Origin: Chondrosia reniformis
Taxonomy: Eukaryota; Porifera; Demospongiae; Chondrillida; Chondrillidae
NCBI GenBank assembly: GCA_947172415.1
Contig: OX359196.1
Location: 746,501 to 810,500, forward strand
DNA: 64,000 bases
Direction: 5' to 3'
Shown: piece by piece, positions 28,580 through 63,400 of the stretch
Numbering within the stretch: position 1 is the stretch's first letter
Layout: each line of letters starts with the position of its first letter
Position numbers and translations under genes: made by a program
Notes under the pieces: model-generated
Told to the model about the DNA's origin: nothing
The model's input: the letters and a program-made list of their open reading frames with translations, nothing else
Databases searched by the model: none

Positions 28580-28587
28580 CTTTTATA
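28580..28587 (-). promoter_or_regulatory. TATA box of kinase copy 4
   Basis: TATAAAAG on the minus strand, 62 bp before the ATG at 28518. Confidence 0.65.
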
Positions 28588-30045: not shown

Positions 30046-31107
30046 TTACTCTTCACCTTCTAGAGAAAATGTTAGAGAACAAACACTTTCCTTTTCTGAA
30101 AGTTCTGAGCTGAATTTTTCTAAAGCATGTTCACTGCATTTTCTGCCAATTTCTGGTGACTCAATCTCTCTGTTGTTGTCTGTTGCTATGCATTTCCTTG
30201 TACGAATGATCCACCTGGTAGCATTAAAAGCTGCCCTTAATTTGCTTCTAAGCACCTCTTTCTGGTTCTCTGTAAGCACCTTTCTCCCCAATATCCAGGG
30301 ATGACAAAGGGCTTGCTGACAGCTCAGTCTCTTCTCGGGGTCAGCAGTCATTAAACTCGATACAAAGTCTTTAGCCTCCTGTGAGATGTGGTCCCAGAAT
30401 TGACAGTCAAATTGGTACTTGGCCTGTTTGATGCATTCGAACATCTTCTTGTTATTGTCGAAGGGAAATGGTGGATATCCAGCAAGTAGAATGTATGCAA
30501 TGACGCCGAGCGACCAGCAATCTGCTTTGGAGGTGTATGGCTGCATATTCAGCTCCTCGGGTGAAGCGTATCCGCCAGTACCTGCAGGCTGGGTCATTGG
30601 ACTGTCCCCAGGAACCGTAGCCGTACCGAAATCTGTCAGGAGGACTTGACTTGTTTTCGGCTTAAACAGAATGTTTTCGGGCTTCAAGTCGCGATGGACA
30701 ATTCCCCTTTTGTGCAAATAGTCGACTGCACGAAGCAGCTGCCTCATGATGTTACGAGCCTCTTCTTCTTGAAATTCTCCTTGCTCCTCTAATCTGCTAA
30801 AGAGCTCGCCTCCTTTCACGTATTCCATGATCAAGTACATTTGACTCTCGTTCTCAAAAGTGTCGTACAGCTTGACAATGTTATCGTGGCTCAGTCGGAA
30901 GAGAATGTCCACTTCGTCCTTTACGGAGAGTCCAGCATTTTGAAGAAATTTCTTGTCAATTATTTTTACTGCTACAGGCTGCAATGTTTTATAATCCTGG
31001 GCTAGGTAAACCTGGGAGAAGGCTCCTTTGCCGATTAGTCTTTTCATGCCGTAACGGGCTAGAACTTTGGGATCAAAGCGAAGACGTCTAGTTTGTCTGA
31101 AAGCCAT
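30046..31107 (-). CDS. CaMKI/PSKH-like kinase, copy 5
   Basis: 353 residues. It differs from copies 3 and 4 by H119N (EEEARN in place of EEEARH), away from the active site. All catalytic motifs are intact. It is the outermost copy on the 5' side of the array, and its upstream companion exons lie at the edge of the duplicated sequence. Confidence 0.9.
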   Translation of the reverse strand: MAFRQTRRLRFDPKVLARYGMKRLIGKGAFSQVYLAQDYKTLQPVAVKIIDKKFLQNAGLSVKDEVDILFRLSHDNIVKLYDTFENESQMYLIMEYVKGGELFSRLEEQGEFQEEEARNIMRQLLRAVDYLHKRGIVHRDLKPENILFKPKTSQVLLTDFGTATVPGDSPMTQPAGTGGYASPEELNMQPYTSKADCWSLGVIAYILLAGYPPFPFDNNKKMFECIKQAKYQFDCQFWDHISQEAKDFVSSLMTADPEKRLSCQQALCHPWILGRKVLTENQKEVLRSKLRAAFNATRWIIRTRKCIATDNNREIESPEIGRKCSEHALEKFSSELSEKESVCSLTFSLEGEE

Positions 31108-36879: not shown

Positions 36880-37400
36880 AAAAACGGCCCAAGTGTGTTT
36901 GGAACTCAATCGGTTCCCAGACCCTTCAACAAATATCGCGATATGCTAACGATAAGGAAAAAAGAGAAAAACGTCCATTCTCAGTGGGTTACAACAAATA
37001 TCGCGATATACTGACGATAAAAAAGAAAAAAACCAGTCACGTTAGCCAGCAGAGACTGCTGTTACCGTCGAGCACCACGAGGAGGTGTGACTTGGATTTT
37101 GCTCGACGCAGGGAGTTCACGTTACCATCCACAATGCGAGCGCCGTCCTTCCATCACTGGTCGTCTGGGGCCAGGATCGTTGGTAACGCCTAACTGGTGC
37201 AGTTTCGGCTTTGGTAGTCACAGAGTGACAGAACCGGCCTTATCCCTCCCCGGGTTCCGTTGTATCGATAAATCGATAATTGGTGAGCACATCCCCATGG
37301 CACCAACCGATACAGGGCAGCTACGGAACCTAGACACTGCCAAGCCAACGAATTAGGACTTACTTCCTAACCCGAGGCTCCACGCTGGCAGGCCTGAATG
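36880..37400. other. GC-rich block with twin 12-bp palindromes, related to element X
   Basis: Markedly richer in GC and CpG than its surroundings. atatcgcgatat, a perfect palindrome, occurs near 36931 and 36997 within a repeated context (caacaaatatcgcgatat...cgataa). From about 37155 the sequence shares ordered motifs with element X in the satellite: ccaggatcgttggtaacgc, ttggtgagcacatcc and tggcaccaaccgat. No protein family is evident. It could be an older element copy, a promoter or a structured RNA locus. Confidence 0.45.
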
Positions 37401-38670: not shown

Positions 38671-38761
38671 CAACTTTTGTATACACTTTAATTGCTCCTA
38701 GCGACTGCATGTGATTTTCATATTTGCCCTATCTCCAATTGCAACCATACGTGTACACATT

Positions 38762-39612
38762 ATGGTGAGAGATAGGGCAAATATGAGTGAACATCAAAAT
38801 TTGTAAAACTCTTTGGATATGCTTTATGTATGTCTGTGAATGCTAACACCAAGTTTCAGCTTCACATCTTTCTAATTGACAGAGTTACAGCACTAAATGT
38901 ACATTAGATTCTGCTATACAAATTTAATGTATGGTGAGAGATAGGGCAAATATGAGTGAACATCAAAATTTGTAAAACTCTTTAGATATGCTTTAAGGAT
39001 GTCTGTGAATGCTGACAACAAGTTTCAGCTCCACATCTTTCCAATTGACAGAGTTACAGCACTAAATGTACATTAGATTCTGCTATACAAATTTAATGTA
39101 CGTATGGTGAGAGATAGGGCAAATATGAGTGAACATCAAAATTTGTAAAACTCTTTGGATATGCTTTAAGGATGTCTGTGAATGCTGATAACAAGTTTCA
39201 GCTTCACATCTTTCCAATTGACAGAGCTACAGCACTAAATGTACATTAGATTCTTGTATACAAATTTAATGTATGGTGAGAGATAGGACAAATATGAGTG
39301 AACATCAAAATTTGTAAAACTCTTTGGATATGCTTTAAGGATGTCTGTGAATGCTGACAACAAGTTTCAGCTTCACATCTTTCCAATTGACAGAGCTACA
39401 GCACTAAATGTACATTAGATTCTTGTATACAAATTTAATGTATGGTGAGAGATAGGACAAATATGAGTGAACATCAAAATTTGTAAAACTCTTTGGATAT
39501 GCTTTATGTATGTCTGTGAATGTTGACAAGAAGTTTCAGCTTCACATCTTTCCAATTGACAGAGTTATTGCACTAAATGTACATTAGATTCTTGTATAGA
39601 AATTTAATGTAC
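38762..39612. repeat. Satellite array, block 1 (about five ~169-bp monomers)
   Basis: Monomers begin atggtgagagatagggcaaa and contain gtgaacatcaaaatttgtaa, cacatctttccaattgacag and cactaaatgtacattagatt. The left edge (about 38718-38790) has an inverted copy of the monomer start (catatttgccctatctcc), which makes a foldback junction. Confidence 0.95.
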
Positions 39613-40335
39613 GGGAGTTTCGTAATAATATAAATGGCCGACCTAGAGAAGGGAATATTGAAAATACGGTACTTTTATATGTATATTTTGAATGACGAGA
39701 ACGCTTTTAAATATTTTAATACACATGGATATTCACTCTGTAATACTTGATTGTTTTGAAGTAGTATCTGTCCATATTATAATATATGGATGTCGCTAAA
39801 GTGAAAAATCGTCAATCGACTGCTAAAGAAACTCCAAAGGAAAAAAATTGGACCATACCGAACGCTACCATCCACGACGCTCAGAGGCCGGGATCGGTGG
39901 TAACGCTCTGCCGAGTTGAGCTTTGGGTGTCACTTGCGTGAGAAGAACCAGTTCTTCTCGATATGGCCGACTCATATGAATCCTAAGATATCAGATGCCA
40001 ATCCCACATTACGTGGAACCCCCCCGAAATCCGGATTATTGGTGAGCACGTCTCTATGGCACCAACCGATTAGGAGACAGCTTCAGAGTCTAAGCGCTAC
40101 CAACCTCTATGGGAACCGCAACCACCATAGAGATGTGTCCAGGTAGGCCTACTATTATAAGGTTTTATCTTCTATTTAAATAAAGTAATTGCCTATGAAA
40201 ACGCTTGTGGTTGGCGAATCTTCAATACTTTAGAATAGGGTATTTTTCGATCTGCAGTAACTCGGGTATCCTTTTTTGAAATTTTACAAAACTAGCAGGA
40301 TATACTGTATAGCTATATGTGCATACAGCCAAGAG
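39613..40335 (+). mobile_element. Element X, copy 1, inside the satellite
   Basis: A 723-bp block that interrupts the satellite after aatttaatgtac and rejoins it at gtttcagcttcatatctttc. It holds a more GC-rich core (about 39860-40140) with ccgggatcggtggtaacgc, tggtgagcacgtctc and tggcaccaaccgattagg. A 76-codon frame runs through the core but there is no recognised domain. No transposase or reverse transcriptase is present. Two further copies are almost identical, including their junctions. Confidence 0.6.
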
Positions 40336-43300
40336 GTTTCAGCTTCATATCTTTCCAATTGACGGAGTTACGGCACTAAATGTAGATTAGATTCTTGTAT
40401 ACAAATTTAAAGTATGGTGAGAGATAGGGCAAATATGAGTGAACATCAAAATTTATAAAACTCTTTGGATATGCTTTAAGGATAGCTGTGAATGCTGACA
40501 GGAAGTTTCAGCTTCACATCTTTCCAATTGACAGAGTTACAGCACTAAATGTACATTAGATTCTTGTATACAAATTTAAAGTATAGTGAGAGATAGGGCA
40601 AATATGAGTGAACATCAAAATTTGTAAAACTCTCTGGATATGTTTTATGGATGTCTGTGAATGCTGACAGCAAGTTTCAGCTTCACATCTTTCCAATTGA
40701 CAGAGTTACAGCACTAAATGTACATTAGATTCTGCTATACAAATTTAATGTATGGTGAGAGATAGGGCAAATATGAGTGAACATCAAAATTTGCAAAACT
40801 CTTTGGATATGCTTTAAGGATAGCTGTGAATGCTGACAGCAAGTTTCAGCTTCACATCTTTCCAATTGACAGAGTTATTGCACTAAATGTACATTAGATT
40901 CTTGTATACAAATTTAAAGTGTGGTGAGAGATAGGACAAATATGAGTGAACATCAAAATTTTTGGATATCTTTTATGGATGTCTGTGAATGCTGACAGGA
41001 AGTTTCAGCTTCACATCTTTCCAATTGACAGAGTTACAGCACTAAATGTACATTAGATTCTGCTATACAAATTTAATGTATGGTGAGAGATAGGGCAAAT
41101 ATGAGTGAACATCAAAATTTGTAAAACTCTTTAGATATGCTTTATGTATGTCTGTGAATGCTGACAACAAGTTTCAGCTTCACATCTTTCCAATTGACAG
41201 AGTTATTGCACTAAATGTACATTAGATTCTGCTGTACAAATTTAATGTATGGTGAGAGATAGGGCAAATATGAGTGAACATCAAAATTTGTAAAACTCTT
41301 TGGATATCTTTTATGGATGTCTGTGAATGCTGACAACAAGTTTCAGCTTCACATCTTTCCAATTGACAGAGTTATTGAACTAAATGTACAATTGATTCTT
41401 GCATACAAATTTAATGTATGGTGAGAGATAGGGCAAATATGAGTGAACATCAAAATTTGTAAAACTCTTTGGATATACTTTAAGGATGTCTGTGAATGCT
41501 GACAACAAGTTTCAGCTCCACATCTTTCCAATTGACAGAGTTACAGCACTAAATGTACATTAGATTTTTGTATACAAATTTAATGTATGGTGAGAGATAG
41601 GGCAAATATGAGTGAACATCAAAATTTGTAAAACTCTTTGGATATGCTTTATGTATGTCTGTGAATGCTGACAACAAGTTTCAGCTTCACATCTTTCCAA
41701 TTGACAGAGTTATTGAACTAAATGTACAATTGATTCTTGCATACAAATTTAATGTATGGTGAGAGATAGGGCAAATATGAGTGAACATCAAAATTTGCAA
41801 AACTCTTTGGATATGTTTTATGGATGTCTGTGAATGCTGACAGCAAGTTTCAGCTTCACATCTTTCCAATTGACAGAGTTACAGCACTAAATGTACATTA
41901 GATTCTTGTATACAAATTTAAAGTATGGTGAGAGATAGGGCAAATATGAGTGAACATCAAAATTTTTGGATATCTTTTATGGATGTCTGTGAATGCTGAC
42001 AGCAAGTTTCAGCTTCACATCTTTCCAATTGACAGAGTTACAGCACTAAATGTACATTAGATTCTGCTATACAAATTTAATGTATGGTGAGAGATAGGGC
42101 AAATATGAGTGAACATCAAAATTTGTAAAACTCTTTAGATATGCTTTATGTATGTCTGTGAATGCTGACAACAAGTTTCAACTTCACATCTTTCCAATTG
42201 ACAGAGTTACAGCACTAAATGTACATTAGATTCTGCTATACAAATTTAATGTATGGTGAGAGATAGGGCAAATATGAGTGAACATCAAAATTTGTAAAAC
42301 TCTTTGGATATGCTTTATGTATGTCTGTGAATGCTGACAACAAGTTTCAGCTTCACATCTTTCCAATTGACAGAGTTATTGAACTAAATGTGCAATTGAT
42401 TCTTGCATACAAATTTAATGTATGGTGAGAGATAGGGCAAATATGAGTGAACATCAAAATTTGTAAAACTCTTTGGATATCTTTTATGGATGTCTGTGAA
42501 TGCTGACAGCAAGTTTCAGCTTCACATCTTTCCAATTGACAGAGTTACAGCACTAAATGTACATTAGATTCTTTTATACAAATTTAATGTATGGTGAGAG
42601 ATAGGGCAAATATGAGTGAACATCAAAATTTGTAAAACTCTTTGGATATCTTTTATGGATGTCTGTGAATGCTGACAGCAAGTTTCAGCTTCACATCTTT
42701 CCAATTGACAGAGTTACAGCACTAAATGTACATTAGATTCTTTTATACAAATTTAAAGTATGGTGAGAGATAGGGCAAATATGAGTGAACATCAAAATTT
42801 GTAAAACTCTTTGGATATGCTTTAAGGATAGCTGTGAATGCTGACAGGAAGTTTCAGCTTCTCATCTTTCCAATTGACAGAGTTACAGCACTAAATGTAC
42901 ATTAGATTCTTGTATACAAATTTAATGTACGTATGGTGAGAGATAGGGCAAATATGAGTGAACATCAAAATTTGCAAAACTATTTGGATATGTTTTATGG
43001 ATGTCTGTGAATGCTGACAGCAAGTTTCAGCTTCACATCTTTCCAATTGACAGAGTTACAGCACTAAATGTACATTAGATTCTTGCATACAAATTTAATG
43101 TATGGTGAGAGATAGGGCAAATATGAGTGAACATCAAAATTTGTAAAACTCTTTGGATATGCTTTATGTATGTCTGTGAATGCTGACAACAAGTTTCAGC
43201 TTCACATCTTTCCAATTGACAGAGTTATTGAACTAAATGTACAATTGATTCTTGCATACAAATTTAATGTATGGTGAGAGATAGAGCAAATATGAGTGAA

Positions 43301-46300
43301 CATCAAAATTTGTAAAACTCTTTGGATATCTTTTATGGATGTCTGTGAATGCTGACAGCAAGTTTCAGCTTCACATCTTTCCAATTGACAGAGTTACAGC
43401 ACTAAATGTACATTAGATTCTGCTATACAAATTTAATGTATGGTGAGAGATAGGGCAAATATGAGTGAACATCAAAATTTGTAAAACTCTTTACATATGC
43501 TTTATGTATGTCTGTGAATGCTGACAACAAGTTTCAGCTTCACATCTTTCCAATTGACAGAGTTATTGAACTAAATGTACAATTGATTCTTGCATACAAA
43601 TTTAATGTACGTATGGTGAGAGATAGGGCAAATATGAGTGAACATCAAAATTTGTAAAACTCTTTGGATATGCTTTAAGGATGTCTGTGAATGCTGACAA
43701 CAAGTTTCAGCTTCACATCTTTCCAATTGACAGAGCTACAGCACTAAATGTACATTAGATTCTTGTATACAAATTTAATGTATGGTGAGAGATAGGACAA
43801 ATATGAGTGGACATCAAAATTTGTAAAACTCTTTGGATATCTTTTATGGGTGTCTGTGAATGCTGACAGCAAGTTTCAGCTTCACATCTTTCCAATTGAC
43901 AGAGTTATTGCACTAAATGTACATTAGATTCTTGTATACAAATTTAATGTATGGTGAGAGATAGGGCAAATATGAGTGAACATCAAAATTTGTAAAACTC
44001 TTTGGATATCTTTTATGGATGTCTGTGAATGCTGACAGCAAGTTTCAGCTTCACATCTTTCCAATTGACAGAGTTACAGCACTAAATGTACATTAGATTC
44101 TTGTAAACAAATTTAATGTATGGTGAGAGATAGGGCAAATATGAGTGAACATCAAAATTTGTAAAACTCTTTGGATATGCTTTATGTATGTCTGTGAATG
44201 CTGACAACAAGTTTCAGCTTCACATCTTTCCAATTGACAGAGCTACAGCACTAAATGTACATTAGATTCTTGTATACAAATTTAATGTATGGTGAGAGAT
44301 AGGGCAAATATGAGTGAACATCAAAATTTGTAAAACTCTTTGGATATGCTTTATGTATGTCTGTGAATGCTGACAACAAGTTTCAGCTTCACATCTTTCC
44401 AATTGACAGAGTTATTTAACTAAATGTACAATTTATTCTTGTATTCAAATTTAATGTATGGTGAGATATAGGGCAAATATGAGTGAACATCAAAATTTGT
44501 AAAACTCTTTGGATATCTTTTATGGATGTCTGTGAATGCTGACAGCAAGTTTCAGCTTCACATCTTTCCAATTGACAGAGTTACAGCACTAAATGTACAT
44601 TAGATTCTTGTATACAAATTTAATGTATTGTGAGATATAGGGCAAATATGAGTGAACATCAAAATTTGCAAAACTCTTTGGATATGCTTTAAGGATAGCT
44701 GTGAATGCTGACAACAAGTTTCAACTTCACATCTTTCCAATTGACAGAGTTATTGCACAAAATGGACAATAGATTCTTGTATACAAATTTAAAGTATGGT
44801 GAGAGATAGGGCAAATATGAGTGAACATCAAAATTTGTAAAACTCTTCGGATATCTTTTATGGATGTCTGTGAATGCTGACACCAAGTTTCAGCTTCACA
44901 TCTTTCCAATTGACAGAGTTACAGCACTAAATGTACATTAGATTCTGCTACGTATGCAAATTTAATGTATGGTGAGAGATAGGGCAAATATGAGTGAACA
45001 TCAAAATTTGTAAAACTCTTTAGATATGCTTTATGTATGTCTGTGAATGCTGACAACAAGTTTCAGCTTCACATCTTTCCAATTGACAGAGTTACAGCAC
45101 TAAATGTACATTAGATTCTGCTATGCAAATTTAATGTATGGTGAGAGATAGGGCAAATACGAGTGAATATCAAAATTTTTAAAACTCTTTGGATATCTAT
45201 TATGGATGTCTGTGAATGCTGACAACAAGTTTCAGCTTCACATCTTTCCAATTGACAGAGTTACAGCACTAAATGTACATTAGATTCTGCTATACAAATT
45301 TAATGTATGGTGAGAGATAGGGCAAATATGAGTGAACATCAAAATTTGTAAAACTCTTTGGATATGCTTTAAGGATGTCTGTGAATGCTGATAACAAGTT
45401 TCAGCTTCACATCTTTCCAATTGACAGAGCTACAGCACTAAATGTACATTAGATTCTTGTATACAAATTTAATGTATGGTGAGAGATAGGACAAATATGA
45501 GTGAACATCAAAATTTGTAAAACTCTTTGGATATGCTTTTTGTATGTCTGTGAATGTTGACAAGAAGTTTCAGCTTCACATCTTTCCAATTGACAGAGTT
45601 ATTGCACTAAATGTACATTAGATTCTGCTATACAAATTTAATGTATGGTGAGATATAGGGCAAATATGAGTGAACATCAAAATTTGCAAAACTCTTTGGA
45701 TATGCTTTAAGGATAGCTGTGAATGCTGACAGCAAGTTTCAGCTTCACATCTTTCCAATTGACAGAATTACAGCACTAAATGTACATTAGATTCTGCTAT
45801 ACAAATTTAATGTATGGTGAGAGATAGGGCAAATATGAGTGAACATCAAAATTTGTAAAACTCTTTGGATATGCTTTATGTATGTCTGTGAATGCTGACA
45901 ACAAGTTTCAGCTTCACATCTTTCCAATTGACAGAGTTATTTAACTAAATGTACAATTTATTCTTGTATTCAAATTTAATGTATGGTGAGATATAGGGCA
46001 AATATGAGTGAACATCAAAATTTGTAAAACTCTTTGGATATCTTTTATGGATGTCTGTGAATGCTGACAGCAAGTTTCAGCTTCACATCTTTCCAATTGA
46101 CAGAGTTACAGCACTAAATGTACATTAGATTCTTGTATACAAATTTAATGTATTGTGAGATATAGGGCAAATATGAGTGAACATCAAAATTTGCAAAACT
46201 CTTTGGATATGCTTTAAGGATAGCTGTGAATGCTGACAACAAGTTTCAACTTCACATCTTTCCAATTGACAGAGTTATTGCACAAAATGGACAATAGATT

Positions 46301-48849
46301 CTTGTATACAAATTTAAAGTATGGTGAGAGATAGGGCAAATATGAGTGAACATCAAAATTTGTAAAACTCTTCGGATATCTTTTATGGATGTCTGTGAAT
46401 GCTGACACCAAGTTTCAGCTTCACATCTTTCCAATTGACAGAGTTACAGCACTAAATGTACATTAGATTCTGCTACGTATGCAAATTTAATGTATGGTGA
46501 GAGATAGGGCAAATATGAGTGAACATCAAAATTTGTAAAACTCTTTGGATATGCTTTATGTATGTCTGTGAATGCTGACAACAAGTTTCAGCTTCATATC
46601 TTTCCAATTGACAGAGTTACAGCACTAAATGTACATTAGATTCTGCTATGCAAATTTAATGTATGGTGAGAGATAGGGCAAATACGAGTGAATATCAAAA
46701 TTTTTAAAACTCTTTGGATATCTATTATGGATGTCTGTGAATGCTGACAACAAGTTTCAGCTTCACATCTTTCCAATTGACAGAGTTACAGCACTAAATG
46801 TACATTAGATTCTGCTATACAAATTTAATGTATGGTGAGAGATAGGGCAAATATGAGTGAACATCAAAATTTGTAAAACTCTTTGGATATGCTTTAAGGA
46901 TGTCTGTGAATGCTGATAACAAGTTTCAGCTTCACATCTTTCCAATTGACAGAGCTACAGCACTAAATGTACATTAGATTCTTGTATACAAATTTAATGT
47001 ATGGTGAGAGATAGGACAAATATGAGTGAACATCAAAATTTGTAAAACTCTTTGGATATGCTTTTTGTATGTCTGTGAATGTTGACAAGAAGTTTCAGCT
47101 TCACATCTTTCCAATTGACAGAGTTATTGCACTAAATGTACATTAGATTCTGCTATACAAATTTAATGTATGGTGAGATATAGGGCAAATATGAGTGAAC
47201 ATCAAAATTTGCAAAACTCTTTGGATATGCTTTAAGGATAGCTGTGAATGCTGACAGCAAGTTTCAGCTTCACATCTTTCCAATTGACAGAGTTATTGCA
47301 CTAAATGTACATTAGATTCTTGTAAACAAATTTAAAGTATGGTGAGAGATAGGGCAAATATGAGTGAACATCAAAATTTTTGGATATCTTTTATGGATGT
47401 CTGTGAATGCTGACAGGAAGTTTCAGCTTCACATCTTTCCAATTGACAGAGTTACAGCACTAAATGTACATTAGATTCTGCTATACAAATTTAATGTATG
47501 GTGAGAGATAGGGCAAATATGAGTGAACATCAAAATTTGTAAAACTCTTTGGATATGCTTTAAGGATGTCTGTGAATGCTGATAACAAGTTTCAGCTTCA
47601 CATCTTTCCAATTGACAGAGCTACAGCACTAAATGTACATTAGATTCTTGTATACAAATTTAATGTATGGTGAGAGATAGGACAAATATGAGTGAACATC
47701 AAAATTTGTAAAACTCTTTGGATATGCTTTTTGAATGTCTGTGAATGTTGACAAGAAGTTTCAGCTTCACATCTTTCCAATTGACAGAGTTATTGCACTA
47801 AATGTACATTAGATTCTGCTATACAAATTTAATGTATGGTGAGATATAGGGCAAATATGAGTGAACATCAAAATTTGCAAAACTCTTTGGATATGCTTTA
47901 AGGATAGCTGTGAATGCTGACAGCAAGTTTCAGCTTCACATCTTTCCAATTGACAGAGTTATTGCACTAAATGTACATTAGATTCTTGTATACAAATTTA
48001 AAGTATGGTGAGAGATAGGGCAAATATGAGTGAACATCAAAATTTTTGGATATCTTTTATGGATGTCTGTGAATGCTGACAGGAAGTTTCAGCTTCACAT
48101 CTTTCCAATTGACAGAGTTACAGCACTAAATGTACATTAGATTCTGCTATACAAATTTAATGTATGGTGAGAGATAGGGCAAATATGAGTGAACATCAAA
48201 ATTTGTAAAACTCTTTAGATATGCTTTATGTATGTCTGTGAATGCTGACAACAAGTTTCAGCTTCACATCTTTCCAATTGACAGAGTTATTGAACTAAAT
48301 GTGCAATTGATTCTTGCATACAAATTTAATGTATGGTGAGAGATAGGGCAAATATGAGTGAACATCAAAATTTGTAAAACTCTTTGGATATCTTTTATGG
48401 ATGTCTGTGAATGCTGACAGCAAGTTTCAGCTTCACATCTTTCCAATTGACAGAGTTACAGCACTAAATGTACATTAGATTCTTTTATACAAATTTAATG
48501 TACGTATGGTGAGAGATACGTAGGGCAAATATGAGTGAACATCAAAATTTGTAAAACTCTTTGGATATGCTTTAAGGATGTCTGTGAATGCTGACAACAA
48601 GTTTCAGCTTCACATCTTTCCAATTGACAGAGCTACAGCACTAAATGTACATTAGATTCTTGTATACAAATTTAATGTATGGTGAGAGATAGGACAAATA
48701 TGAGTGAACATCAAAATTTGTAAAACTCTTTGGATATGCTTTATGTATGTCTGTGAATGTTGACAAGAAGTTTCAGCTTCACATCTTTCCAATTGACAGA
48801 GTTATTGCACTAAATGTACATTAGATTCTTGTATAGAAATTTAATGTAC
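40336..48849. repeat. Satellite array, block 2 (about 50 ~169-bp monomers, with higher-order repeat)
   Basis: Same monomer as block 1. Common variants are an 11-bp deletion (catcaaaatttttggatatc), atggtgagatatagg, and acgtatggtg junctions. A multi-monomer segment beginning near 44459 is repeated at +1525 bp (nine monomers); for example, tgctttttgtatgtctgtga occurs near 45535 and again near 47060. Part of it recurs once more near 47726. Repeated 60-codon minus-strand frames (MERCEAETCCQHSQ...) simply reflect monomer pairs. Confidence 0.95.
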
Positions 48850-49571
48850 GGGAGTTTCGTAATAATATAAATGGCCGACCTAGGAAGGGAATATTGAAAA
48901 TACGGTACTTTTATATGTATATTTTGAATGACGAGAACGCTTTTAAATATTTTAATACACATGGATATTCACTCTGTAATACTTGATTGTTTTGAAGTAG
49001 TATCTGTCCATATTATAATATATGGATGTCGCTAAAGTGAAAAATCGTCAATCGACTGCTAAAGAAACTCCAAAGGAAAAAAATTGGACCATACCGAACG
49101 CTACCATCCACGACGCTCAGAGGCCGGGATCGGTGGTAACGCTCTGCCGAGTTGAGCTTTGGGTGTCACTTGCGTGAGAAGAACCAGTTCTTCTCGATAT
49201 GGCCGACTCATATGAATCCTAAGATATCAGATGCCAATCCCACATTACGTGGAACCCCCCCGAAATCCGGATTATTGGTGAGCACGTCTCTATGGCACCA
49301 ACCGATTAGGAGACAGCTTCAGAGTCTAAGCGCTACCAACCTCTATGGGAACCGCAACCACCATAGAGATGTGTCCAGGTAGGCCTACTATTATAAGGTT
49401 TTATCTTCTATTTAAATAAAGTAATTGCCTATGAAAACGCTTGTGGTTGGCGAATCTTCAATACTTTAGAATAGGGTATTTTTCGATCTGCAGTAACTCG
49501 GGTATCCTTTTTTGAAATTTTACAAAACTAGCAGGATATACTGTATAGCTATATGTGCATACAGCCAAGAG
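48850..49571 (+). mobile_element. Element X, copy 2, inside the satellite
   Basis: Near-identical to copy 1, with the same junctions and the same flanking monomer variants (ttgacaagaag and cttgtatagaa on the left). It therefore spread as part of a larger satellite segment and not by fresh insertion. It lacks one 'ga' of gacctagagaagg in copy 1. Confidence 0.6.
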
Positions 49572-52190
49572 GTTTCAGCTTCATATCTTTCCAATTGACG
49601 GAGTTACGGCACTAAATGTAGATTAGATTCTTGTATACAAATTTAAAGTATGGTGAGAGATAGGGCAAATATGAGTGAACATCAAAATTTATAAAACTCT
49701 TTGGATATGCTTTAAGGATAGCTGTGAATGCTGACAGGAAGTTTCAGCTTCACATCTTTCCAATTGACAGAGTTACAGCACTAAATGTACATTAGATTCT
49801 TGTATACAAATTTAAAGTATAGTGAGAGATAGGGCAAATATGAGTGAACATCAAAATTTGTAAAACTCTCTGGATATGTTTTATGGATGTCTGTGAATGC
49901 TGACAACAAGTTTCAGCTTCACATCTTTCCAATTGACAGAGTTACAGCACTAAATGTACATTAGATTCTGCTATACAAATTTAATGTACGTATGGTGAGA
50001 GATAGGGCAAATATGAGTGAACATCAAAATTTGTAAAACTCTTTAGATATGCTTTATGTATGTCTGTGAATGCTGACAACAAGTTTCAGCTTCACATCTT
50101 TCCAATTGACAGAGTTACAGCACTAAATGTACATTAGATTCTGCTATACAAATTTAATGTATGGTGAGAGATAGGGCAAATATGAGTGAACATCAAAATT
50201 TGTAAAACTCTTTGGATATCTTTTATGGATGTCTGTGAATGCTGACAACAAGTTTCAGCTTCACATCTTTCCAATTGACAGAGTTACAGCACTAAATGTA
50301 CATTAGATTCTGCTATGCAAATTTAATGTATGGTGAGAGATAGGGCAAATATGAGTGAACATCAAAATTTGTAAAACTCTTTGGATATCTTTTATGGATG
50401 TCTGTGAATGCTGACAGGAAGTTTCAGCTTCACATCTTTCCAATTGACAGAGTTACAGCACTAAATGTACATTAGATTCTTGTAAACAAATTTAATGTAT
50501 GGTGAGAGATAGGGCAAATATGAATGAACATCAAAATTTGTAAAACTCTTTGGATATACTTTATGTATGTCTGTGAATGCTGACAACAAGTTTCAGCTTC
50601 ACATCTTTCCAATTGACAGAGTTATTGAACTAAATGTACAATTGATTCTTGTATACAAATTTAATGTATGGTGAGAGATAGGGCAAACATGAGTGAACAT
50701 CAAAATTTGTAAAACTCTTTGGATATCTTTTATGGATGTCTGTGAATGCTGACAGCAAGTTTCAGCTTCGCATCTTTCCAATTGACAGAGTTACAGCACT
50801 AAATGTACATTAGATTCTGCTATACAAATTTAATGTATGGTGAGAGATAGGGCAAATATGAATGAACATCAAAATTTGTAAAACTCTTTGGATATACTTT
50901 ATGTATGTCTGTGAATGCTGACAACAAGTTTCAGCTTCACATCTTTCCAATTGACAGAGTTATTGAACTAAATGTACAATTGATTCTTGTATACAAATTT
51001 AATGTATGGTGAGAGATAGGGCAAATATGAGTGAACATCAAAATTTGTAAAACTCTTTGGATATCTTTTATGGGTGTCTGTGAATGCTGACAACAAGTTT
51101 CAGCTTCACATCTTTCCAATTGACAGAGTTACAGCACTAAATGTACATTAGATTCTGCTATACAAATTTAATGTATGGTGAGAGATAGGACAAATATGAG
51201 TGAACATCAAAATTTGTAAAACTCTTTGGATATGCTTTATGTATGTCTGTGAATGTTGACAAGAAGTTTCAGCTTCACATCTTTCCAATTGACAGAGTTA
51301 TTGCACTAAATGTACATTAGATTCTTGTATACAAATTTAATGTATGGTGAGAGATAGGGCAAATATGAGTGAACATCAAAATTTGTAAAACTCTTTGGAT
51401 ATCTTTTATGGATGTCTGTGAATGCTGACAGCAAGTTTCAGCTTCACATCTTTCCAATTGACAGAGTTACAGCACTAAATGTACATTAGATTCTTGTAAA
51501 CAAATTTAATGTATGGTGAGAGATAGGGCAAATATGAATGAACATCAAAATTTGTAAAACTCTTTGGATATGCTTTAAGGATGTCTGTGAATGCTGACAA
51601 CAAGTTTCAGCTTCACATCTTTCCAATTGACAGAGCTACAGCACTAAATGTACATTAGATTCTGCTATACAAATTTAATGTATGGTGAGAGATAGGACAA
51701 ATATGAGTGAACATCAAAATTTGTAAAACTCTTTGGATATGCTTTATGTATGTCTGTGAATGTTGACAAGAAGTTTCAGCTTCACATCTTTCCAATTGAC
51801 AGAGTTACAGCACTAAATGTACATTAGATTCTGCTATACAAATTTAATGTATGGTGAGAGATAGGGCAAATATGAGTGAACATCAAAATTTGTAAAACTC
51901 TTTGGATATGCTTTAAGGATGTCTGTGAATGCTGACAACAAGTTTCAGCTTCACATCTTTCCAATTGACAGAGCTACAGCACTAAATGTACATTAGATTC
52001 TGCTATACAAATTTAATGTATGGTGAGAGATAGGACAAATATGAGTGAACATCAAAATTTGTAAAACTCTTTGGATATGCTTTATGTATGTCTGTGAATG
52101 TTGACAAGAAGTTTCAGCTTCACATCTTTCCAATTGACAGAGTTATTGCACTAAATGTACATTAGATTCTTGTATAGAAATTTAATGTAC
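49572..52190. repeat. Satellite array, block 3 (about 15 monomers)
   Basis: Same monomer family. The first monomers after element X repeat those after copy 1 almost base for base, which shows segmental duplication within the array. Confidence 0.95.
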
Positions 52191-52912
52191 GGGAGTTTCG
52201 TAATAATATAAATGGCCGACCTAGGAAGGGAATATTGAAAATACGGTACTTTTATATGTATATTTTGAATGACGAGAACGCTTTTAAATATTTTAATACA
52301 CATGGATATTCACTCTGTAATACTTGATTGTTTTGAAGTAGTATCTGTCCATATTATAATATATGGATGTCGCTAAAGTGAAAAATCGTCAATCGACTGC
52401 TAAAGAAACTCCAAAGGAAAAAAATTGGACCATACCGAACGCTACCATCCACGACGCTCAGAGGCCGGGATCGGTGGTAACGCTCTGCCGAGTTGAGCTT
52501 TGGGTGTCACTTGCGTGAGAAGAACCAGTTCTTCTCGATATGGCCGACTCATATGAATCCTAAGATATCAGATGCCAATCCCACATTACGTGGAACCCCC
52601 CCGAAATCCGGATTATTGGTGAGCACGTCTCTATGGCACCAACCGATTAGGAGACAGCTTCAGAGTCTAAGCGCTACCAACCTCTATGGGAACCGCAACC
52701 ACCATAGAGATGTGTCCAGGTAGGCCTACTATTATAAGGTTTTATCTTCTATTTAAATAAAGTAATTGCCTATGAAAACGCTTGTGGTTGGCGAATCTTC
52801 AATACTTTAGAATAGGGTATTTTTCGATCTGCAGTAACTCGGGTATCCTTTTTTGAAATTTTACAAAACTAGCAGGATATACTGTATAGCTATATGTGCA
52901 TACAGCCAAGAG
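52191..52912 (+). mobile_element. Element X, copy 3, inside the satellite
   Basis: Same 722-bp element and junctions as copy 2, differing at very few positions (ggttccagc at the right junction). Confidence 0.6.
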
Positions 52913-53339
52913 GTTCCAGCTTCATATCTTTCCAATTGACGGAGTTACGGCACTAAATGTAGATTAGATTCTTGTATACAAATTTAAAGTATGGTGAGAG
53001 ATAGGGCAAATATGAGTGAACATCAAAATTTATAAAACTCTTTGGATATGCTTTAAGGATAGCTGTGAATGCTGACAGGAAGTTTCAGCTTCACATCTTT
53101 CCAATTGACAGAGTTACAGCACTAAATGTACATTAGATTCTGCTATACAAATTTAATGTATGGTGAGAGATAGGGCAAATATGAGTGAACATCAAAATTT
53201 GTAAAACTCTTTGGATATGCTTTAAGGATGTCTGTAAATGCTGACAACAAGTTTCAGCTTCACATCTTTCCAATTGACAGAGTTACAGCACTAAATGTAC
53301 ATTAGATTCTTGTATACAAATTTAAAGTATGGTGAGATA
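52913..53339. repeat. Satellite array, block 4 (last monomers)
   Basis: Two to three monomers, then the array breaks off inside atggtgagata at about 53340. Confidence 0.9.
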
Positions 53340-53344
53340 TACGT

Positions 53345-54411: not shown

Positions 54412-57321
54412 TTAATAGTAGATGGTCCGTGTGTGATGAATGGGAAGATGGTCCATCTCCTCTGCATGACTTTTAGCAAATTTCCATAGATAGTAGTCAA
54501 TTTCCACAGACTTTGGACAAGGAACACCTTTCAGACTATCATCTCCTGAAACCAGTTGACTAAGCTCTTGACGGATCAACTGGAGATTGAAAGAGTTTGG
54601 ATGCATAAAATAGGGAACATAAATCAGATAGTGCGAGTATGTTCGAAAGACTATACATTAAACTAACGTTAGCAACTGCTATAAGGTTGTCAAATATTTC
54701 CTGATTTGCAGCTCAAAAACTTATCAGGAAACAAGAGAGCCTAGCCTAGTAGTACGATTGGTACAATATCCCACATCCCACTGACCTCTCTTTAGTGTTT
54801 CCAAAATGTCACTTGAATACTTTAATACATTAGCCCTAGCTTTAGCTAACCTCAACTTATAAGGAAACAAGAGAGCCTAATTAAGGTATAAAATACAGCT
54901 AAGCTAACCTCAACAGCCCAAATTGAGGATGCTCTTATTTCAACCTCATAATCACTGCCAGCAGAGAGTACCTCCCCTACAGGAACAGAATCGCAATATT
55001 GGCCTTCAACTACTACTGTACAATGCTGTTGCCAAATAAGGTATTGAAGCGACAGGATGAGAATTGGTGATGGGTATTCCAAGAAGATGGAAAGTATTAG
55101 AAAGGTTAAGATATGAATGTGTTTTATTATTGTACCCAAGTTTGTATGTAAGAACAAAGTGTATACAGAATAGGAATTTAGTTATAGAGTCCATTTTGGA
55201 CACATATATAAGTGGAGGAGGTTGTATGTGTAGTAATTGATACCAATAATAATTCTTTGTAAATCCACTGACCTCTCTTTAGTTTTTCCAAAAGGTCACT
55301 TGAATACTTTAATACATTAAAGTATTGCAATGACTATATGGAAGATACAGCATGATTGTCACATGATAGTCACACGATTGACCATTAAATCACATATACT
55401 ATATAGTCTATTACCTGAGGCACCCGATAATCAGCAAACATGGTCAACTTTTCAAGTCCTTTGAGATCTCCGAAGCTTTTACCTTGAAACATAAACCACA
55501 AATCTGAAACAAAGATCTGTGCTCTCTTTAGCATGGAGATCGTTCGGCCCTTGTACATTATAACATCTCTGTAGCTCGGAAAACTATCTGCCACAATCTC
55601 AACTAGGCGCCAGGCTTCGTTATTAGCACTGCTAACAAGTTTCTCCAAAGAACCTCCAAATTTCTAAATAATCAAATATAGTCACATTGCATTGTAGCAT
55701 TTTTTTTCATTTTATTTTGCAACAGAAAATACTACATCTACAGTAGCTGCAGCTTTTCATGCAGGTCCTGATTTACTAATACAACATAAAACATGCACAC
55801 ATGGTGGGACAAATTGGGTTATTAGAAAGTTATTGTCAAGTTATAACAGTTAGATGAATGAGGAAAATTCAAATTCATTAATACGAAAATTCATACACTT
55901 GTTTAAGAAAGGTAAAATTCAATCCAAAAACTGCAACTATTATGAAATGGTGACTAGCTCTACATTGCCAAGACTTAATCACGATTAACAACGCACTTCC
56001 TTCAGAACAGAGCAAGCTTCACTGATGTTCATCCACCTTTCCTTTAGCAAAGGAATAGTACCCTCTGTGTCTGACCTGAGTATATGGCAGAGCTTCTCCT
56101 CCGAAATGGCATCATAAAACAATGACTGACACACTGGTACACCATCCTTTAATAATTAAGAGATGAGATACATATAAGAAACATGAAGGAGCAATCACTG
56201 TGGCAATTGTAGCTCAGTAGCAGCTGTCCTGGGTTCAATTCCCAGCAATTGCTTCTTTCATGTTTTTCCTCTTCATAATAATTGAGGATGATGATAGTTA
56301 TTTGTGGTTTGTTTATCACTTCGCTTAGTCATGTAAGACTTACATGCATATATCTTCTTAATAATATTTTAGAATCAGTACATGCAATTAAATTACCACA
56401 CTGATCAATCTTACATTGTATGCTCTTCTGATAGCTGCAGCCAATCCTCTATATCCAGTATGCAGTCTTCCGTTGAGGCATACCCCAAACATGGGATCAC
56501 CAGGGTCGGCCCAAAAACAGAAATTTAGTGTGTCCAAAAGAAATACCCTAGGGGAATAATTAGACATTGGAAATACCCTAGGGGAATAATTAGACATAAG
56601 GAATACCCTAGGGGAATAATTGGACACAAGAAATACCCTAGGGGAATAATTGGACATTGGAAATACCCTAGGGGAATAATTAGACACAAGGAATACCCTA
56701 GGGGAATAATTAGAAATTGGAAATACCCTAGGGGAATAATTAGACACAAGGAATACCCTAGGGGAATAATTAGAAATTGGAAATACCCTAGGGGAACAAT
56801 TAGACATTGGAAATACCCTAGGGGAACAATTAGACATTGGAAATACCCGAGAGGAATTGTAATAATATTATTGCTACTTGGATGTGATATGATGTGATAT
56901 GTATCCTAAAAACAGTTGAAAAAATAATGTCCTCAAGGCAGAGCTTTCCCAACCCCATTCACAACCCACCAGTGCAGTTTTTCCGTGTCACTGAGACCTT
57001 CTGGAAGGTACTCATCTTTGCTTTTTTCATTTTGAAGTGTTCCTTGTTCTCTTAGAACACCAAACAGCTGCAGTATACACAAAAGACATGAATATGGGAG
57101 GTATATATAATTGAGCATCAATAATACATGAATATGGGAGGTATATATAATTGAGCATATCCTTTGTTCTGTTCATTGTCAATGTGAAATATTAAAAGTA
57201 AAAAGGCACACAATACGTTTCATACATGTCGAGCGGCTTCCAGACTTCCTTGCGCGTTACAAGTTACATGTACCGCCGTGGATACTACAAACTGAGCACT
57301 TTCCAATGGATGATCAAACAT
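54412..57321 (-). CDS. QNG1: Queuosine 5'-phosphate N-glycosylase/hydrolase (queuosine salvage protein)
   Basis: Seven exons on the minus strand: 57321-57226, 57067-56970, 56547-56415, 56146-55997, 55663-55415, 55025-54909 and 54579-54412. Together they are 1011 nt, 336 residues, close to the 341 of human QNG1. Every junction agrees in phase. QNG1 (DUF2419) releases queuine from queuosine 5'-phosphate for reuse in tRNA. Visible family motifs, in order, are LESAQFV, HWVFLLDTLNFCFW, GYRGLAAAIRRA, HILRSDT, SFPSYRDV, KRAQIFVSDLW, MFADYRVPQ, YEVEIRASSIWAVE, IDYYLWKFAK and the end IHHTRTIYY. Exon 6 lacks a few residues found in human, so its acceptor (CAACAG) is the least certain border. Exon 3 takes its acceptor from inside a 30-bp minisatellite. 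The gene is divergent from SIN1. Confidence 0.9.
56178..56311 (+). repeat. tRNA-derived SINE-like repeat, copy 2, in QNG1 intron 3
   Basis: The core at 56202-56252 folds as a tRNA without an anticodon arm. It has a 7-bp acceptor stem (gcaattg/caattgc), an A-box-like tagctcagta, a perfect 5-bp T stem (ctggg/cccag) around a 7-base loop, and B box ggttcaattcc. It is followed by a T-rich tail shared with the copy at 1362-1475. Confidence 0.6.
56541..56850. repeat. 30-bp minisatellite spanning the QNG1 exon-3 acceptor, about ten copies
   Basis: The unit aaataccctaggggaataat plus ten more bases repeats from 56541. On the minus strand each unit reads TTCCCCTAG|GGTATTT. The copy nearest the exon supplies the acceptor and first codons (V-F) of QNG1 exon 3. 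The period is a multiple of three and the frame has no stop through all copies. Confidence 0.9.
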
Positions 57322-57440: not shown

Positions 57441-60400
57441 ATGGCTTTGCACGACAACAAAGATATTCTACTGTCCCACTTGCGACACGTATTCGTCACC
57501 AATGATGATTCTGGTGAGTGTTAGTCAGTGGCCGGAAGTTGTCGATCGAGGTCCGAATGTATGTGTATGTAGTATGTTGATGTCTTAAATTCATTTTAGG
57601 AGTCTCCGAGATGGTAATGCTGCAGGAAGACCTGGATACGGAATTGTCGATCGATAAATCCTTTCAGAAGAGAGGACAATTGCGGTTGCACAGCTCGAGA
57701 TCGTGAGTGCTGTACTGTATAGTCTAATCATTGAGCTACATCTAATTCTTATAGTCCATTCATTAACGTTTCATATGATTTGAAATATTTTCCTCTTTTT
57801 GTGAATTTGTACTATAATATGTTTAATGTAATATCCAAGACTAATCGCTTGACTTGCAAAAATGCAACTCGGTGGATTTTAGTATAATATTCTAAAGGTT
57901 TTGGAATAAGTAAAGCACCACTTTTCTAAAGACATGGGTTGACAAACAAATTCTCATTCGTATGACATACATATACTCTACAGGACATATGTACGCGTCA
58001 CATATTGCTGATGAAGACCTATGGGTTGAAACGTTCTATTATCAATAATTTATATTGCTGTTGCTCAATAATACCTCTGGATTTCATCGTGATCGCAACA
58101 AACAATCCTTATCACTTCGTATCACATAGTTATACCAGTTGAATCATATATGTATCATATACGTATTGCATACATACGTGTCACATATATACTTATGCTA
58201 TAGGTATCACATAAGTATGACAGATGTTATGATTCTAAGGAATATGCTTAGCATGAACTATTTCCCCAGACCTATTAAAGCCTATTACATTGGGAATCCC
58301 GTAGAGTATGTTTGGAGTTACAAAGATAATACTTTATATTATAGCAATCCAGAAAAGAAATCTTTATTTGCAAAGTCATTTGATATACATGGAGCTTCTA
58401 TAGCAACAGCTGCTGTTGGACGAAGAGAAGATAGAAATGTGTTTGATATGAATGAAATCAGAATGTAAGTGACTCCGGTTGCATAAGTAATCTAACACAT
58501 CATTTTTCAATAGATCTGTAGGGAACTATACCTAGTTAGAGCCTTGGATACAAGGGGTTCTCTTCTTCTCTTCTTCTCCACTGGAGCATCAATTAAGTCT
58601 GTTAATTTGCTCCCTTTTAGGAAAGTGAAAAGTGAAAAGTGTAAAGTCATTCACTGGAAGGAGGGAAACACATTAGGTGGGTGTGTCACTAATGGGATGT
58701 GCCTTATGGAGGGTGTGTCACTAATGGGATGTACCTTATGGAGGGTGTGTCACTAATGGGAAGTGCCTTATGGTGGGTGTGTCACTAATGGGATGTACCT
58801 TATGGTGGGTGTGTCACTAATGGGATGTGCCTTATGGAGGGTGTGTCACTAATGGGAAGTGCCTTATGGTGGGTGTGTCACTAATGGGATGTACCTTATG
58901 GTGGGTGTGTCACTAATGGGATGTGCCTTATGGAGGGTGTGTCACTAATGGGATGTGCCTTATGGTGGGTGTGTCACTAATGGGATGTACCTTATGGAGG
59001 GTGTGTCACTAATGGGATGTGCCTTATGGAGGGTGTGTCACTAATGGGATGTACCTTATGGTGGGTGTGTCACTAATGGGATGTACCTTATGGTGGGTGT
59101 GTCACTAATGGGATGTGCCTTATGGAGGGTGTGTCACTAATGGGATGTGCCTTCCTTATAGGTGGGTGTGTCATTAGGTACCTAACCAAGGTGTGCATAT
59201 ATGTCCTGTTATGTATATTACAAGTGAATGAATTGCTGTAGTGTCTTGCACTGTATATGATTACATTGATTTGGCAAAAGTAAGTGTATTTTGATGATAA
59301 AGATTATAGAAAACTCAGCTCTCAAATAAGAATAATGAATAAGAACAATAGACAGTTATTGTTGGTGATGTTACTTATTAATATGTTACTCATTATTAAT
59401 ATGGAATAGAGGATGCGATGAGTACATTTTCACTCAAAACTGTACGAATGTAGGGTGTGAGTTAATAGTTATTCTGGGCGGGGTCAATGGGTAAGGCGGA
59501 CACCTTGTGGTATCGAATGCTGTCAGTGTCACATGCGTCAGGCGCTGCTTCAGTGACCATTGGTACATAATTCTTTTTCTTGCGAGTGCACCTCCTTATG
59601 GTGAAGAGGATTACAATGAATATCATGAACACTGCAGTGGCAATGCCAGCTCCAATTATTCCAGCAACAGGAGGTGATATGGGCATTGAATGACCATTAT
59701 CTGACCCTCCTAGTGAACCATTTTTAGCAACTTTCTGGCCGTACACCTCACCTGCTACTTCAGAGTAGTTTACGTTTGAAGGTGAAATGACCTTCCAATG
59801 ATCATCCTCGAGATCTTCTTTAGAGTTGTACTTGTTTATCCAAATGGAACCATCATTTGCCAAAAGAAAATAATCTTGAGATTTGTTCAATATACTCTCA
59901 GGAATATCCATGAATGGAGGCCGCCTGACCTTCTGATTCTGGAATGCTGATAATGTGCCTGCCTTTAAGCAATAGTTAACCTCACAATCGTTAGCAATCA
60001 TGCCCAAATGCTGAGCATAACCTTTAGGACAGTCCTTTGGAGCAGGTTTAGTTTTGGAGGCAAGTGGATTTCCGTGTTTACAGCTATGAAACCCAGCAAA
60101 TGGCAATGAGGCGGACATTCCCAACTCTACATCGCTAGTCATGCACACATAACCTTTGGCAGTGAATCGTACTCTTTGGTATTCTTTGGGGCAGGAGAGG
60201 CTCCCTGTGAATGGGTTTGGCCTCTCGTCAGAGAATACACCGCCAAAAAGAAAATTCTGACTCCCAGATGCGTCAGAGTAGCACCAAAATGTTTCATAAC
60301 TTATTGAGTACTTTATGAAGTTTGGTTGGCAGAACTGTCCAGTGACACATCTCCCCCATCCAAGGAAGCCACATGAAGAGTGTTGGTCCCAACATCGCGG

Positions 60401-63400
60401 CTCGTTCACTGTGAAAAACCTGCTCCCCTGTAGCAACCGAACGGAGTGGTATCCAGATGGGCATGAATATGCTCCTGTTGCTAAATTCTTTTGCTCCATG
60501 TTAAACTTTTCACATATTGAGATTTTGTCACTTTTGCATGTTTGATAAACACCTCCAAATTTAAACATTTTCCCTGTAGCAGCACAGGAATGGTCATCTA
60601 TATTTGCCTGTGGGTTGTAGTTATCAGATGTTGGGTTGGTACAGCCCTTGTACGTGTTAACCTTGTAGTATTTGTCTGCAGCTGTGATTATCAATTGAGC
60701 CACTTGGAGGATAATGTCGGGAGGGATTTCTGGAATAACATACGGAGACACTAGAGTTTGCAGTGGATCTCCATCTCTGTCTATAGAAACCATTTCCTTC
60801 TCAATTCCAGACTCCCATTCAAAAATGGAAGTGTTAGTAGTAAACAGTGGGCCACCATGTGTATCAAGACTTGATGATGTGATGGAATTTAAATATTGGG
60901 AATGTAGTTGTCTATCATGGTTATTTGCAAAGCCGAAACCTGCCTGGACCTTCTTCTTAAAGTCAATCTGAGCTCCTGATTCCAAATTTCGCCTGCTTCC
61001 CTCAGAAAGTTCGTCAGTTTCCATTTGAAGGAAGTCTGTTTTGGTCAAGAGTCCTCCCACAGTTGTGGTATGTATATAGTGTGTCCCATAGTCCTTTATT
61101 ATCAGCTGGGAGAGGTATTTTGCCAATTGTGTATTATTGGTTTGAAGAGAGGCAGCAATTTGGAAAATCCTATTTTTAAATTGCGGATGCAGATTTGAAC
61201 TTGGTTGTGCCTTGAGGACATAACGTGGATGATCAAGTTGTATTCGAGAGGCTCTTCCTCGCTTTTCACGAAATGTACTACTGAACCGCTCATATTCCAA
61301 AGAAAATTTCCCACTTATGATGGAATACACTCCAAGATTAGCATTTACTGAATAGGATGTTGAACTAGTAAAATTTAGCTTTCTGGTAAACAATCTAGTC
61401 GAAATGTCCTGGTTACTCTGTCGGAGTGGAATGGCATCAACATTGTTGGGCACCAGAAACTTGCCATCTGAAGTTACCTTGCACCTGGAGTAGTTGTAAG
61501 CCAGGACTAGACTCTGGTCCAGGTTTCTCAAGTTATCCCACCCTTTTCCTGGCAGAGTATCAAATGGAGCAGCTACAATGGAACTATTTGTAATCATGCA
61601 GTTTCTAGGATCACCGTTGGGGAACTCATAAGTTGATCCGGTAGCACTTAAAAAGAGAAGAAAAATCACCAATTTCCCCATACTGCTTTCAAGTACAGAA
61701 GATTATCTTCTCTAATAAGTCTATTAGCCAATTTTGTTTTTATACCACTTTAAGATGGTCATGTACGTATTACCTTTTTTGGTCACAAGGGATTTTTTTA
61801 TTTGTTCTGGAGAATATTTTGCACATATATAATACTGTTTTATTTTGAAAGGCAAAAGTGTACATTTAGCAGGTATTCAGGTATTTAGAAATACCTGAAT
61901 AGAAGATATTAAAACTGGAATATGTTACTCTGTATACAATTATTATTATTACACATAAGTATATAAACTGCCCATTTTTGTCTATTCTTATAACTTGAGT
62001 GTACCAGCAATAGAGCTTTGGATAAAGATATTATGTTCATATCTTCTCCAATATGCCATATATATATATTGGCATTAATTAGATAGCTGTGTATAATACC
62101 AAGGGATGGCTGTATACAGTATTATGTATATAATTGCAGATTTGGTATTATGTTAGTTTTTTTTAACTAAATCCTAAAGAATACATAGAAACATTTTTAT
62201 CAAGTCTTTTAGATGATGGAATGTACTGTAATTGTTTCTCTCTTCTTCACTACTTGATCCATTCATTGTTTGTTGAACATACTGTATATATATTTATGCA
62301 CAGCTTATATTTATTTGACTATACAACTGCTTAAAAGGATTATAGACCACAGCTCTACCAAAGATTTCTGTTGCAAAGGAGATAAGGAACTGATTATTTT
62401 GTTCTGTTTTTTTGTCATACCTAATATATATTTTCATAAAAGCATTCTTTCTTTTTGTGTGGTACTTTGCCAGTTATAGCAATTTGTAAATTGCAAATTG
62501 CTTGACTGACTGTACAACTGTACTGTACAACATAGTTCTATACTGGAAACTGGAGATTTTCATTTTGTTGCTTGCTAGACTAAATCCTTGTTCTGTTAGT
62601 CTGTATTAGTCACAATCTACATATCTTGTGTAGATAAATCTCTCTTTGAACAAAAGGAGATTGTACCACGAGACAAGTCCATTCCTGCGACCTCAAAACT
62701 GTCTACTCTACTATCAGAATTCTATCAGCAAGGCGCTAATCCTTATTTGGAATACAGCAAATTTGATGGAGAGGTACACACTGCATTCCCCAGTACTGCA
62801 TCGCACCTTCTAAAATGAACTGAATTCCTCATTTTATGATAACCTTCCGTGTTTGGTCTCAGAGCCACGAAGCAGTCAGTTTTACAAACACTTTCAAGAT
62901 GTTTCTATCAATGACTGATGTAAGATAAATTTTCTACAATTATGTGGTTGTCATGAGATATGTGAGTGGCTTATTTGTGTCAATATTTTAGGATCTTACT
63001 CCCATCAAAGTCATAATTTTGAGTAAGTGATTTTGAGATACATAGGTTGTCATGGTAACATACATAGAATAATTACTTGATAATTGTAATATTTAACAAG
63101 TGCTGTATTAAACAGATAAGAAGTGTCTTGTTGATTTTCTACAAAATTTTACAAGAATCGTACAGTACAGAAGCACCTATTGTAGATTAAATTGTCTATA
63201 TGTTATGTAGAATTGCTACCTAACATATAGCATTATACTACCTAATTAGGAACCCTACATACATAAAGTAGTTATTATATGTGGAAACTGGGAATTATGT
63301 GCTTTGTGTATATGAGATTGCTGGATTGATTTGAGGGTACAAAATGTTGCTGTAGGTGATGCTACTGTTGAACAGCTCGTAGGATTGACCTTTTACAAGT

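Follow-up and report, generated by a model that had tools for sequence, protein, structure and literature searches.

A 30-bp minisatellite at the intron 2/exon 3 border of the sponge QNG1 gene repeats the splice acceptor ten times in one open frame

The gene for the queuosine-salvage enzyme QNG1 of the sponge Chondrosia reniformis carries, at the border of its second intron and third exon, a minisatellite in which the splice acceptor is repeated with every unit and the reading frame is kept throughout. The question raised by this locus is which of the acceptors serves the gene, and whether the kept frame means anything for the protein. The preferred reading, to which we give a probability of about 0.76, is that the 3' splice site at the end of QNG1 intron 2 gave rise to the minisatellite, which is of the type known as mirage in amphioxus, that ordinary QNG1 is made mostly through the last acceptor and that the array is mainly intron.

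The window is the whole stretch of DNA analysed, 64,000 nucleotides (C8:746501-810500) of a genome of 117,379,552 bases in 15 contigs. The genome analysed matches the primary assembly (GCA_947172415.1), for which Ensembl and BRAKER3 annotations exist, and the alternate haplotype is deposited as GCA_947172445.1. The C. reniformis assembly odChoReni1.1 is described as 14 chromosomes and a 17.45-kb mitochondrial genome, and the RNA-seq run ERR10177766 is listed under the same specimen identifier (PMC12181767). Other elements of the window are a 746-aa open frame with a MACPF domain (E 5.6e-19) at 59462-61702 on the minus strand, which adjoins QNG1; five near-identical tandem protein kinase genes at 19375-31107 (minus), all of them uninterrupted open frames of 353-368 aa; an HDV-like ribozyme (RF02682) at 37035-37107 (minus), scoring 47 bits for a gathering threshold of 44; and several blocks of a 169-bp satellite at 38761-53341, with about 50 and 15 copies in the largest two.

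The gene model (Table 1) comprises eight exons with GT...AG introns and, spliced at the last AG of the array, gives an intact protein of 340 residues. Seven open stretches were compared with Pfam, one of which belonged to the adjoining MACPF gene; Q_salvage (PF10343) was identified in five QNG1 stretches, above the cut-off in four and below it in exon 7, and the open stretch of exon 2 gave no match. The spliced protein aligns over query residues 4-340 (E 1.7e-78) with the solved QNG1 chain 7ugk, which we take to be the human protein, and the Pfam stretches and this alignment together show conservation of QNG1/Q_salvage over the full length. Pfam, the eight-exon model and the 7ugk alignment thus agree with the preliminary description, which had named the gene as QNG1. 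Searched against the genome, the protein gave eight scored matches, every one of them within its own locus. No second copy was found in the genome at the sensitivity of this protein search, and for that reason this locus presumably makes the working enzyme. Within the gene, a 55-nt piece of exon 6 and its donor (55265-55319) is copied after exon 7, at 54778-54832 in intron 7, with 96% identity.

Table 1. Features of the QNG1 locus (window positions) and of two donor arrays elsewhere in the genome (positions in the sampled piece); a slash marks an exon-intron border.
Feature	Position	Strand	Basis or remark
QNG1 exon 1, start codon	57226..57321	-	gene model, protein alignment
QNG1 exon 2, donor CTG/GTGGGT	56970..57067	-	gene model, protein alignment; no Pfam match
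QNG1 intron 2	56548..56969	-	422 nt via last AG, 152 nt via first AG
30-bp minisatellite	56540..56857	-	ten complete units 56847-56548, a degenerate first unit lacking AG, and the first 8 nt of exon 3
Nine further in-frame acceptors	56578..56819	-	each CCCCTAG; AG ends 56818, 56788, 56758, 56728, 56698, 56668, 56638, 56608, 56578
Last AG of the ladder, probably the authentic acceptor of intron 2	56548..56549	-	HW-VFLLDTLNF join, ungapped against solved QNG1 7ugk
QNG1 exon 3, 133 nt, VFLLDTLNFCFW...AYN	56415..56547	-	Pfam, gene model, alignment
QNG1 exon 4	55997..56146	-	Pfam, gene model, alignment
QNG1 exon 5	55415..55663	-	Pfam, gene model, alignment
QNG1 exon 6	55273..55333	-	gene model, alignment
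QNG1 exon 7	54909..54976	-	Pfam below family cut-off, gene model, alignment
QNG1 exon 8 and stop	54412..54579	-	Pfam, gene model, alignment
BUD13 donor array, 24-bp	L005:3915-4086 (C1, about 503915-504086)		repeats exon donor GG/GTGRGT, starts 2 nt inside exon
Integrin-beta-like donor array, 43-bp	L026:6089-6373 (C6, about 506089-506373)		repeats donor AAGG/GTAAGC, seven copies

The array itself was scored by TRF as 10.6 copies at 88% matches, and its end reaches 8 nt into exon 3, which starts at 56547. A minisatellite covering the exon 3 acceptor and repeating it about ten times had been claimed before, and both the array and the ten AGs were confirmed; the interval 56415-56850 then assigned to it is array plus exon 3, the array alone being 56540-56857 with the 8-nt exon overlap. 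CCCCTAG ends all ten complete units and GGTATT follows in each of them. Seven bases past the AG the units differ, three of the ten reading GGTATTC and the rest having T, and of the unit start GGTATTT given in the preliminary description the first six bases hold throughout and the final T does not. The upstream-most partial unit (to 56848) is degenerate, reading TCTCG with no AG, and the ladder therefore consists of nine extra acceptors and the real one. A 22-base core of the array occurs 10 times in the window at up to one mismatch and was absent from all 100 of 100 window shuffles. Among nine units compared, seven positions are variable (7, 9, 10, 11, 13, 16 and 21) and the acceptor core is invariant; the tenth (56847) has the same sequence as the unit beside it. 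Ahead of the acceptor stands CTAAT in eight units and CCAAT in two, and by the animal consensus CTAAT is branch-point-like and may act as a branch point. The frame is kept and open from all ten AGs (56818, 56788 and so on to 56548), in agreement with the earlier statement that all units share one stop-free frame, and splicing to the first AG would lengthen the protein by 90 residues. Five more AGs lie between the exon 2 donor and the array, with their ends at 56944, 56932, 56906, 56877 and 56874, and each of them leads to a stop.

The last AG is probably the authentic acceptor and normally the sole one used. The evidence is the alignment of the 340-aa protein with 7ugk, which is gapless at the exon 2/3 junction (LHW-VFLLDTLNF in the sponge and VNW-VFVTDTLNF in 7ugk); this ungapped junction points to the last AG, and it upholds the earlier claim that the last unit is the real exon border. 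The exon 2 donor (56970/56969) and the HW-VFLLDTLNF join had also been placed correctly, as judged by the gene model. The gene would then still yield the ordinary protein, mostly by the last acceptor, and the array would be mainly intron because that acceptor is mostly used. Occasional choice of an upstream acceptor would add 10 to 90 residues and leave the frame intact, since the unit is 30 bp long and stop-free in that frame; such leaky use is possible and would produce length variants.

Several points stand against the last AG. The core is identical in all ten acceptors, so the local sequence offers no reason to favour the last one, and under the first-AG scanning rule simple scanning would favour an acceptor further upstream. 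In addition, 422 nt makes intron 2 the longest of the seven introns (the others measure 81-333 nt), whereas the 152 nt obtained with the first AG is ordinary. Further points are that extra residues at the junction might be tolerated, as set out below, and that in amphioxus the copied signals are regarded as potential cryptic sites (PMC3087553). A structure of the intron RNA that would hide the upstream AGs was considered and rejected (z -1.12, with 13 of 100 shuffles folding as well).

First-AG preference and the intron length speak for a constitutive coding repeat, in which the first array AG (56818) would be the normal acceptor, the intron would measure 152 nt, within the range of the gene's other introns, and the protein would carry 90 extra residues of the VFxxSNYSPR type, all nine extra units being open in frame. 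Its mass, reckoned from residue numbers, would be about 48 kDa against 38 kDa for the protein spliced at the last AG. However, 7ugk, which alone among the solved sequences can be aligned over its length to either side of the junction, has no insertion there, the unit carries the intron-end signals CCCCTAG and CTAAT, and the amino-acid changes between units look unconstrained. We consider such a constitutive repeat very unlikely.

Genuine alternative splicing would mean that several acceptors are in measurable use and that QNG1 is longer by multiples of ten residues, over a range varying with the repeat number between individuals. The ten same-core in-frame acceptors, the stop-free array and the stops at all five AGs upstream of it agree with this idea, and so does the position of the junction. 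Four of the five solved sequences, presumably none of them human, align only from query residue 64 on, and the exon junction lies at residues 65/66; the block common to these four thus begins two residues ahead of the junction, which is as far as the alignment bears on the core strand placed after it by the preliminary description, and an insertion at the edge of this shared core might be tolerated. Among the intron changes caused by human internal tandem repeats, 66% are reported to have a repeat-retaining transcript as well (PMC2812944). On the other side, the openness of the array is at the level of chance, the units show no protein constraint (two silent and three amino-acid-changing codons), and the amphioxus precedents are described as regularly spliced (PMC3087553, PMC3902484). 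Measurable use of several acceptors is judged unlikely, and the last acceptor is retained as the one that would mostly serve the gene.

The preliminary description had held a ladder of acceptors that keeps the frame to be unusual, and this claim fell. Random 30-mers of the array's composition are open in a fixed frame in 65% of cases and in some frame in 97%, and the shuffled array consensus is open in a fixed frame in 59%. For comparison with real repeats, the window and a first genome sample were taken together (239,224 bases; 54 of 62 arrays kept, the eight dropped being 13-bp satellite and telomere). The period is divisible by three in 14 of the 54 arrays, and of the 28 strands of these arrays 22 have an open frame. 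On 12 of 108 array-strands, 60% or more of the units have an acceptor-like AG in phase; five of the 108, belonging to four arrays that include that of QNG1, combine such a ladder with an open frame. Five codons vary among the nine units, two of them silently only and three with a change of amino acid; with three of five variable codons changing the residue, no protein constraint on the array is visible. The open frame of the QNG1 array is chance expectation, and the keeping of the frame was rejected as a sign of selection on account of the chance-level openness and the unconstrained amino-acid changes.

The origin of the array appears to be local. A genome search with the array DNA, in which simple repeats and very common words are passed over, returned the array alone, which indicates that it probably grew in place and is the local origin, with no dispersed repeat, that belongs to a mirage. 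The first 6-10 bases of exon 3 are common to the exon and each of the ten units (the best unit shares 12 of the first 14), and these leading bases encode V-F, residues conserved with 7ugk. For this reason the exon probably existed before the copies, and the seeding would have run from the exon to the array. The simplest history, judged from the sequence, would be a tandem duplication across the intron-exon border followed by spread. About 18-20 nt of the intron end and about 10-13 nt of the exon start at the 3' splice site of intron 2 would have been tandemly duplicated, and slippage or unequal exchange would then have raised the number of copies of this segment to ten. A 22-base pattern of exon 3, searched for another individual, gave 0 matches in the genome collection and 0 in the viral-contig collection; records very close to the genome of the window were possibly excluded from both.

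The array would have a quite different origin if it were noise of the assembly, or a repeat unrelated to the splice site that lies there by chance. Minisatellites are dense in this genome (66 arrays kept in 225 kb), and repeat copy numbers in general can be misassembled. The unit nevertheless continues in register into conserved exon codons, and the assembly is a PacBio long-read assembly with a primary consensus quality of 69.8 (PMC12181767), so that noise or coincidence is the least probable of the explanations weighed here and only barely credible. Seeding by the QNG1 splice site is kept as the preferred reading.

Border arrays are not confined to QNG1. In 23 pieces of the genome at preset positions (225,224 bases; the piece L004 is a chromosome end) at least two more were recognised, at donors of a BUD13 gene and of an integrin-beta-like gene, and this number is a lower bound because the array flanks were inspected visually and only a few were compared with Pfam. 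In the BUD13 case the Bud13 profile matches on both sides of the intron, with positions 1-39 ahead of it (21.8 bits for a cut-off of 27, hence below) and with positions 43-101 behind it (42.7 bits). The second exon is also matched by a solved BUD13 homolog (E 5.1e-12), and reading through the exon end meets a TGA immediately. In the integrin case seven copies of the exon end AAGG/GTAAGCCCC follow one another from 6373 to 6109, with GT in four and AT in three. The array marked by TRF covers only 6089-6324 and starts 46 nt inside the intron, so that the copy adjoining the exon, a degenerate one, falls outside it; this one more copy extends the repeat to the exon end and, when counted, the repeat begins 4 nt inside the exon. 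Solved integrin beta-1 chains align over the junction and are gapless there (best E 5.6e-4), and for an exon further upstream the match to Integrin_beta, at 24.1 bits, narrowly misses the cut-off of 24.8 bits. Two other stretches compared with Pfam, one of them the array-bordering exon, gave no Pfam match and the joined piece gave no significant one. Another putative donor of the integrin-beta-like gene is closely followed, at L026:6560-6602, by a 10-bp repeat whose units contain GTATGT.

The BUD13 and integrin arrays resemble that of QNG1 in that the copies start inside the exon, by 2 nt and 4 nt, and repeat the splice site. They differ from it in repeating the 5' splice site, with the TGA past the BUD13 exon and the AT in three of seven integrin copies, and they show that keeping the frame is not necessary for border arrays to exist.

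Such arrays are also not in excess. Under random placement 3.7-5.9 of 132 array edges would fall in the 13-21 nt zone at splice sites, for a splice-site density of one per about 470 bp, calculated from published gene and exon numbers and ignoring that first and last exons have a single site. The edges are those of 66 arrays, after removal of the 13-bp satellite, the telomere, all arrays of L009 and the arrays with a period below 30 of L016, L020 and L021. The recognised cases are not above this expectation, and an enrichment of array edges at splice sites was rejected; of the two recognised arrays only that of BUD13 has its TRF edge inside the zone.

The three cases of this genome, one acceptor and two donors, suggest that border repeats are a normal by-product of many minisatellites and many exons and not a speciality of amphioxus. 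Extrapolation of two arrays in 225 kb gives about 1,000 per genome, with a 95% range of about 130-3,800. A bolder proposal, that the unstable ten-acceptor ladder tunes the length of the queuosine-salvage enzyme in ten-residue steps and that border-copying minisatellites number hundreds or thousands genome-wide, is unlikely as a whole. If true, the sponge would be a second animal lineage, far from amphioxus, in which minisatellites routinely copy splice sites. The QNG1 ladder is a natural assay of spliceosome choice among ten same-core acceptors at a spacing of 30 nt, and the array extends border-copying repeats from amphioxus to a sponge; a limited search of the open-licence literature, with few sponge-specific terms, found no report of such repeats in sponges.

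Among known systems, NAGNAG tandem acceptors provide alternative acceptors in frame (PMC3250501), as the QNG1 ladder does. The ladder differs in its spacing of 30 nt against three, in having ten sites against two and in its origin by repeat expansion, and with its AGs 30 nt apart it does not belong to that class. Human variable internal tandem repeats at exon-intron borders are closer in form, being minisatellites with units that average about 30 bp, and can create new introns; unlike the QNG1 array they lie in recent segmental duplications and come with transcript evidence (PMC2812944).

The closest likeness is to the mirages of amphioxus, minisatellite-like duplications of intron-exon borders described in Adh3, BflGb6 and BflGb9 (PMC3087553), with TnC and PGBD5 as further examples of 60 and 108 bp (PMC3902484). 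The authors link these repeats to a model of intron gain and point out that the copied signals could act as cryptic splice sites, while the Adh3 data and RT-PCR of the globins suggest that splicing is undisturbed (PMC3087553). The TnC mirage is reported to leave splicing undisturbed, and the same is suggested for PGBD5 (PMC3902484). As in amphioxus, the QNG1 unit spans the border and holds intron and exon sequence of it, and splice signals are repeated in many units there and as an AG in all ten complete units here. The unit of 30 bp is within the range of Adh3, whose units measure 10-72 bp (PMC3087553, PMC3902484). The globin BflGb6 is similar also in the side that is copied, since its 3' border, intron end and exon start, is duplicated, in 6 and 3 copies in two haplotypes (PMC3087553). 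The sponge array differs in its host and in the AG and frame kept in every complete unit; it has the structural features of the mirage kind.
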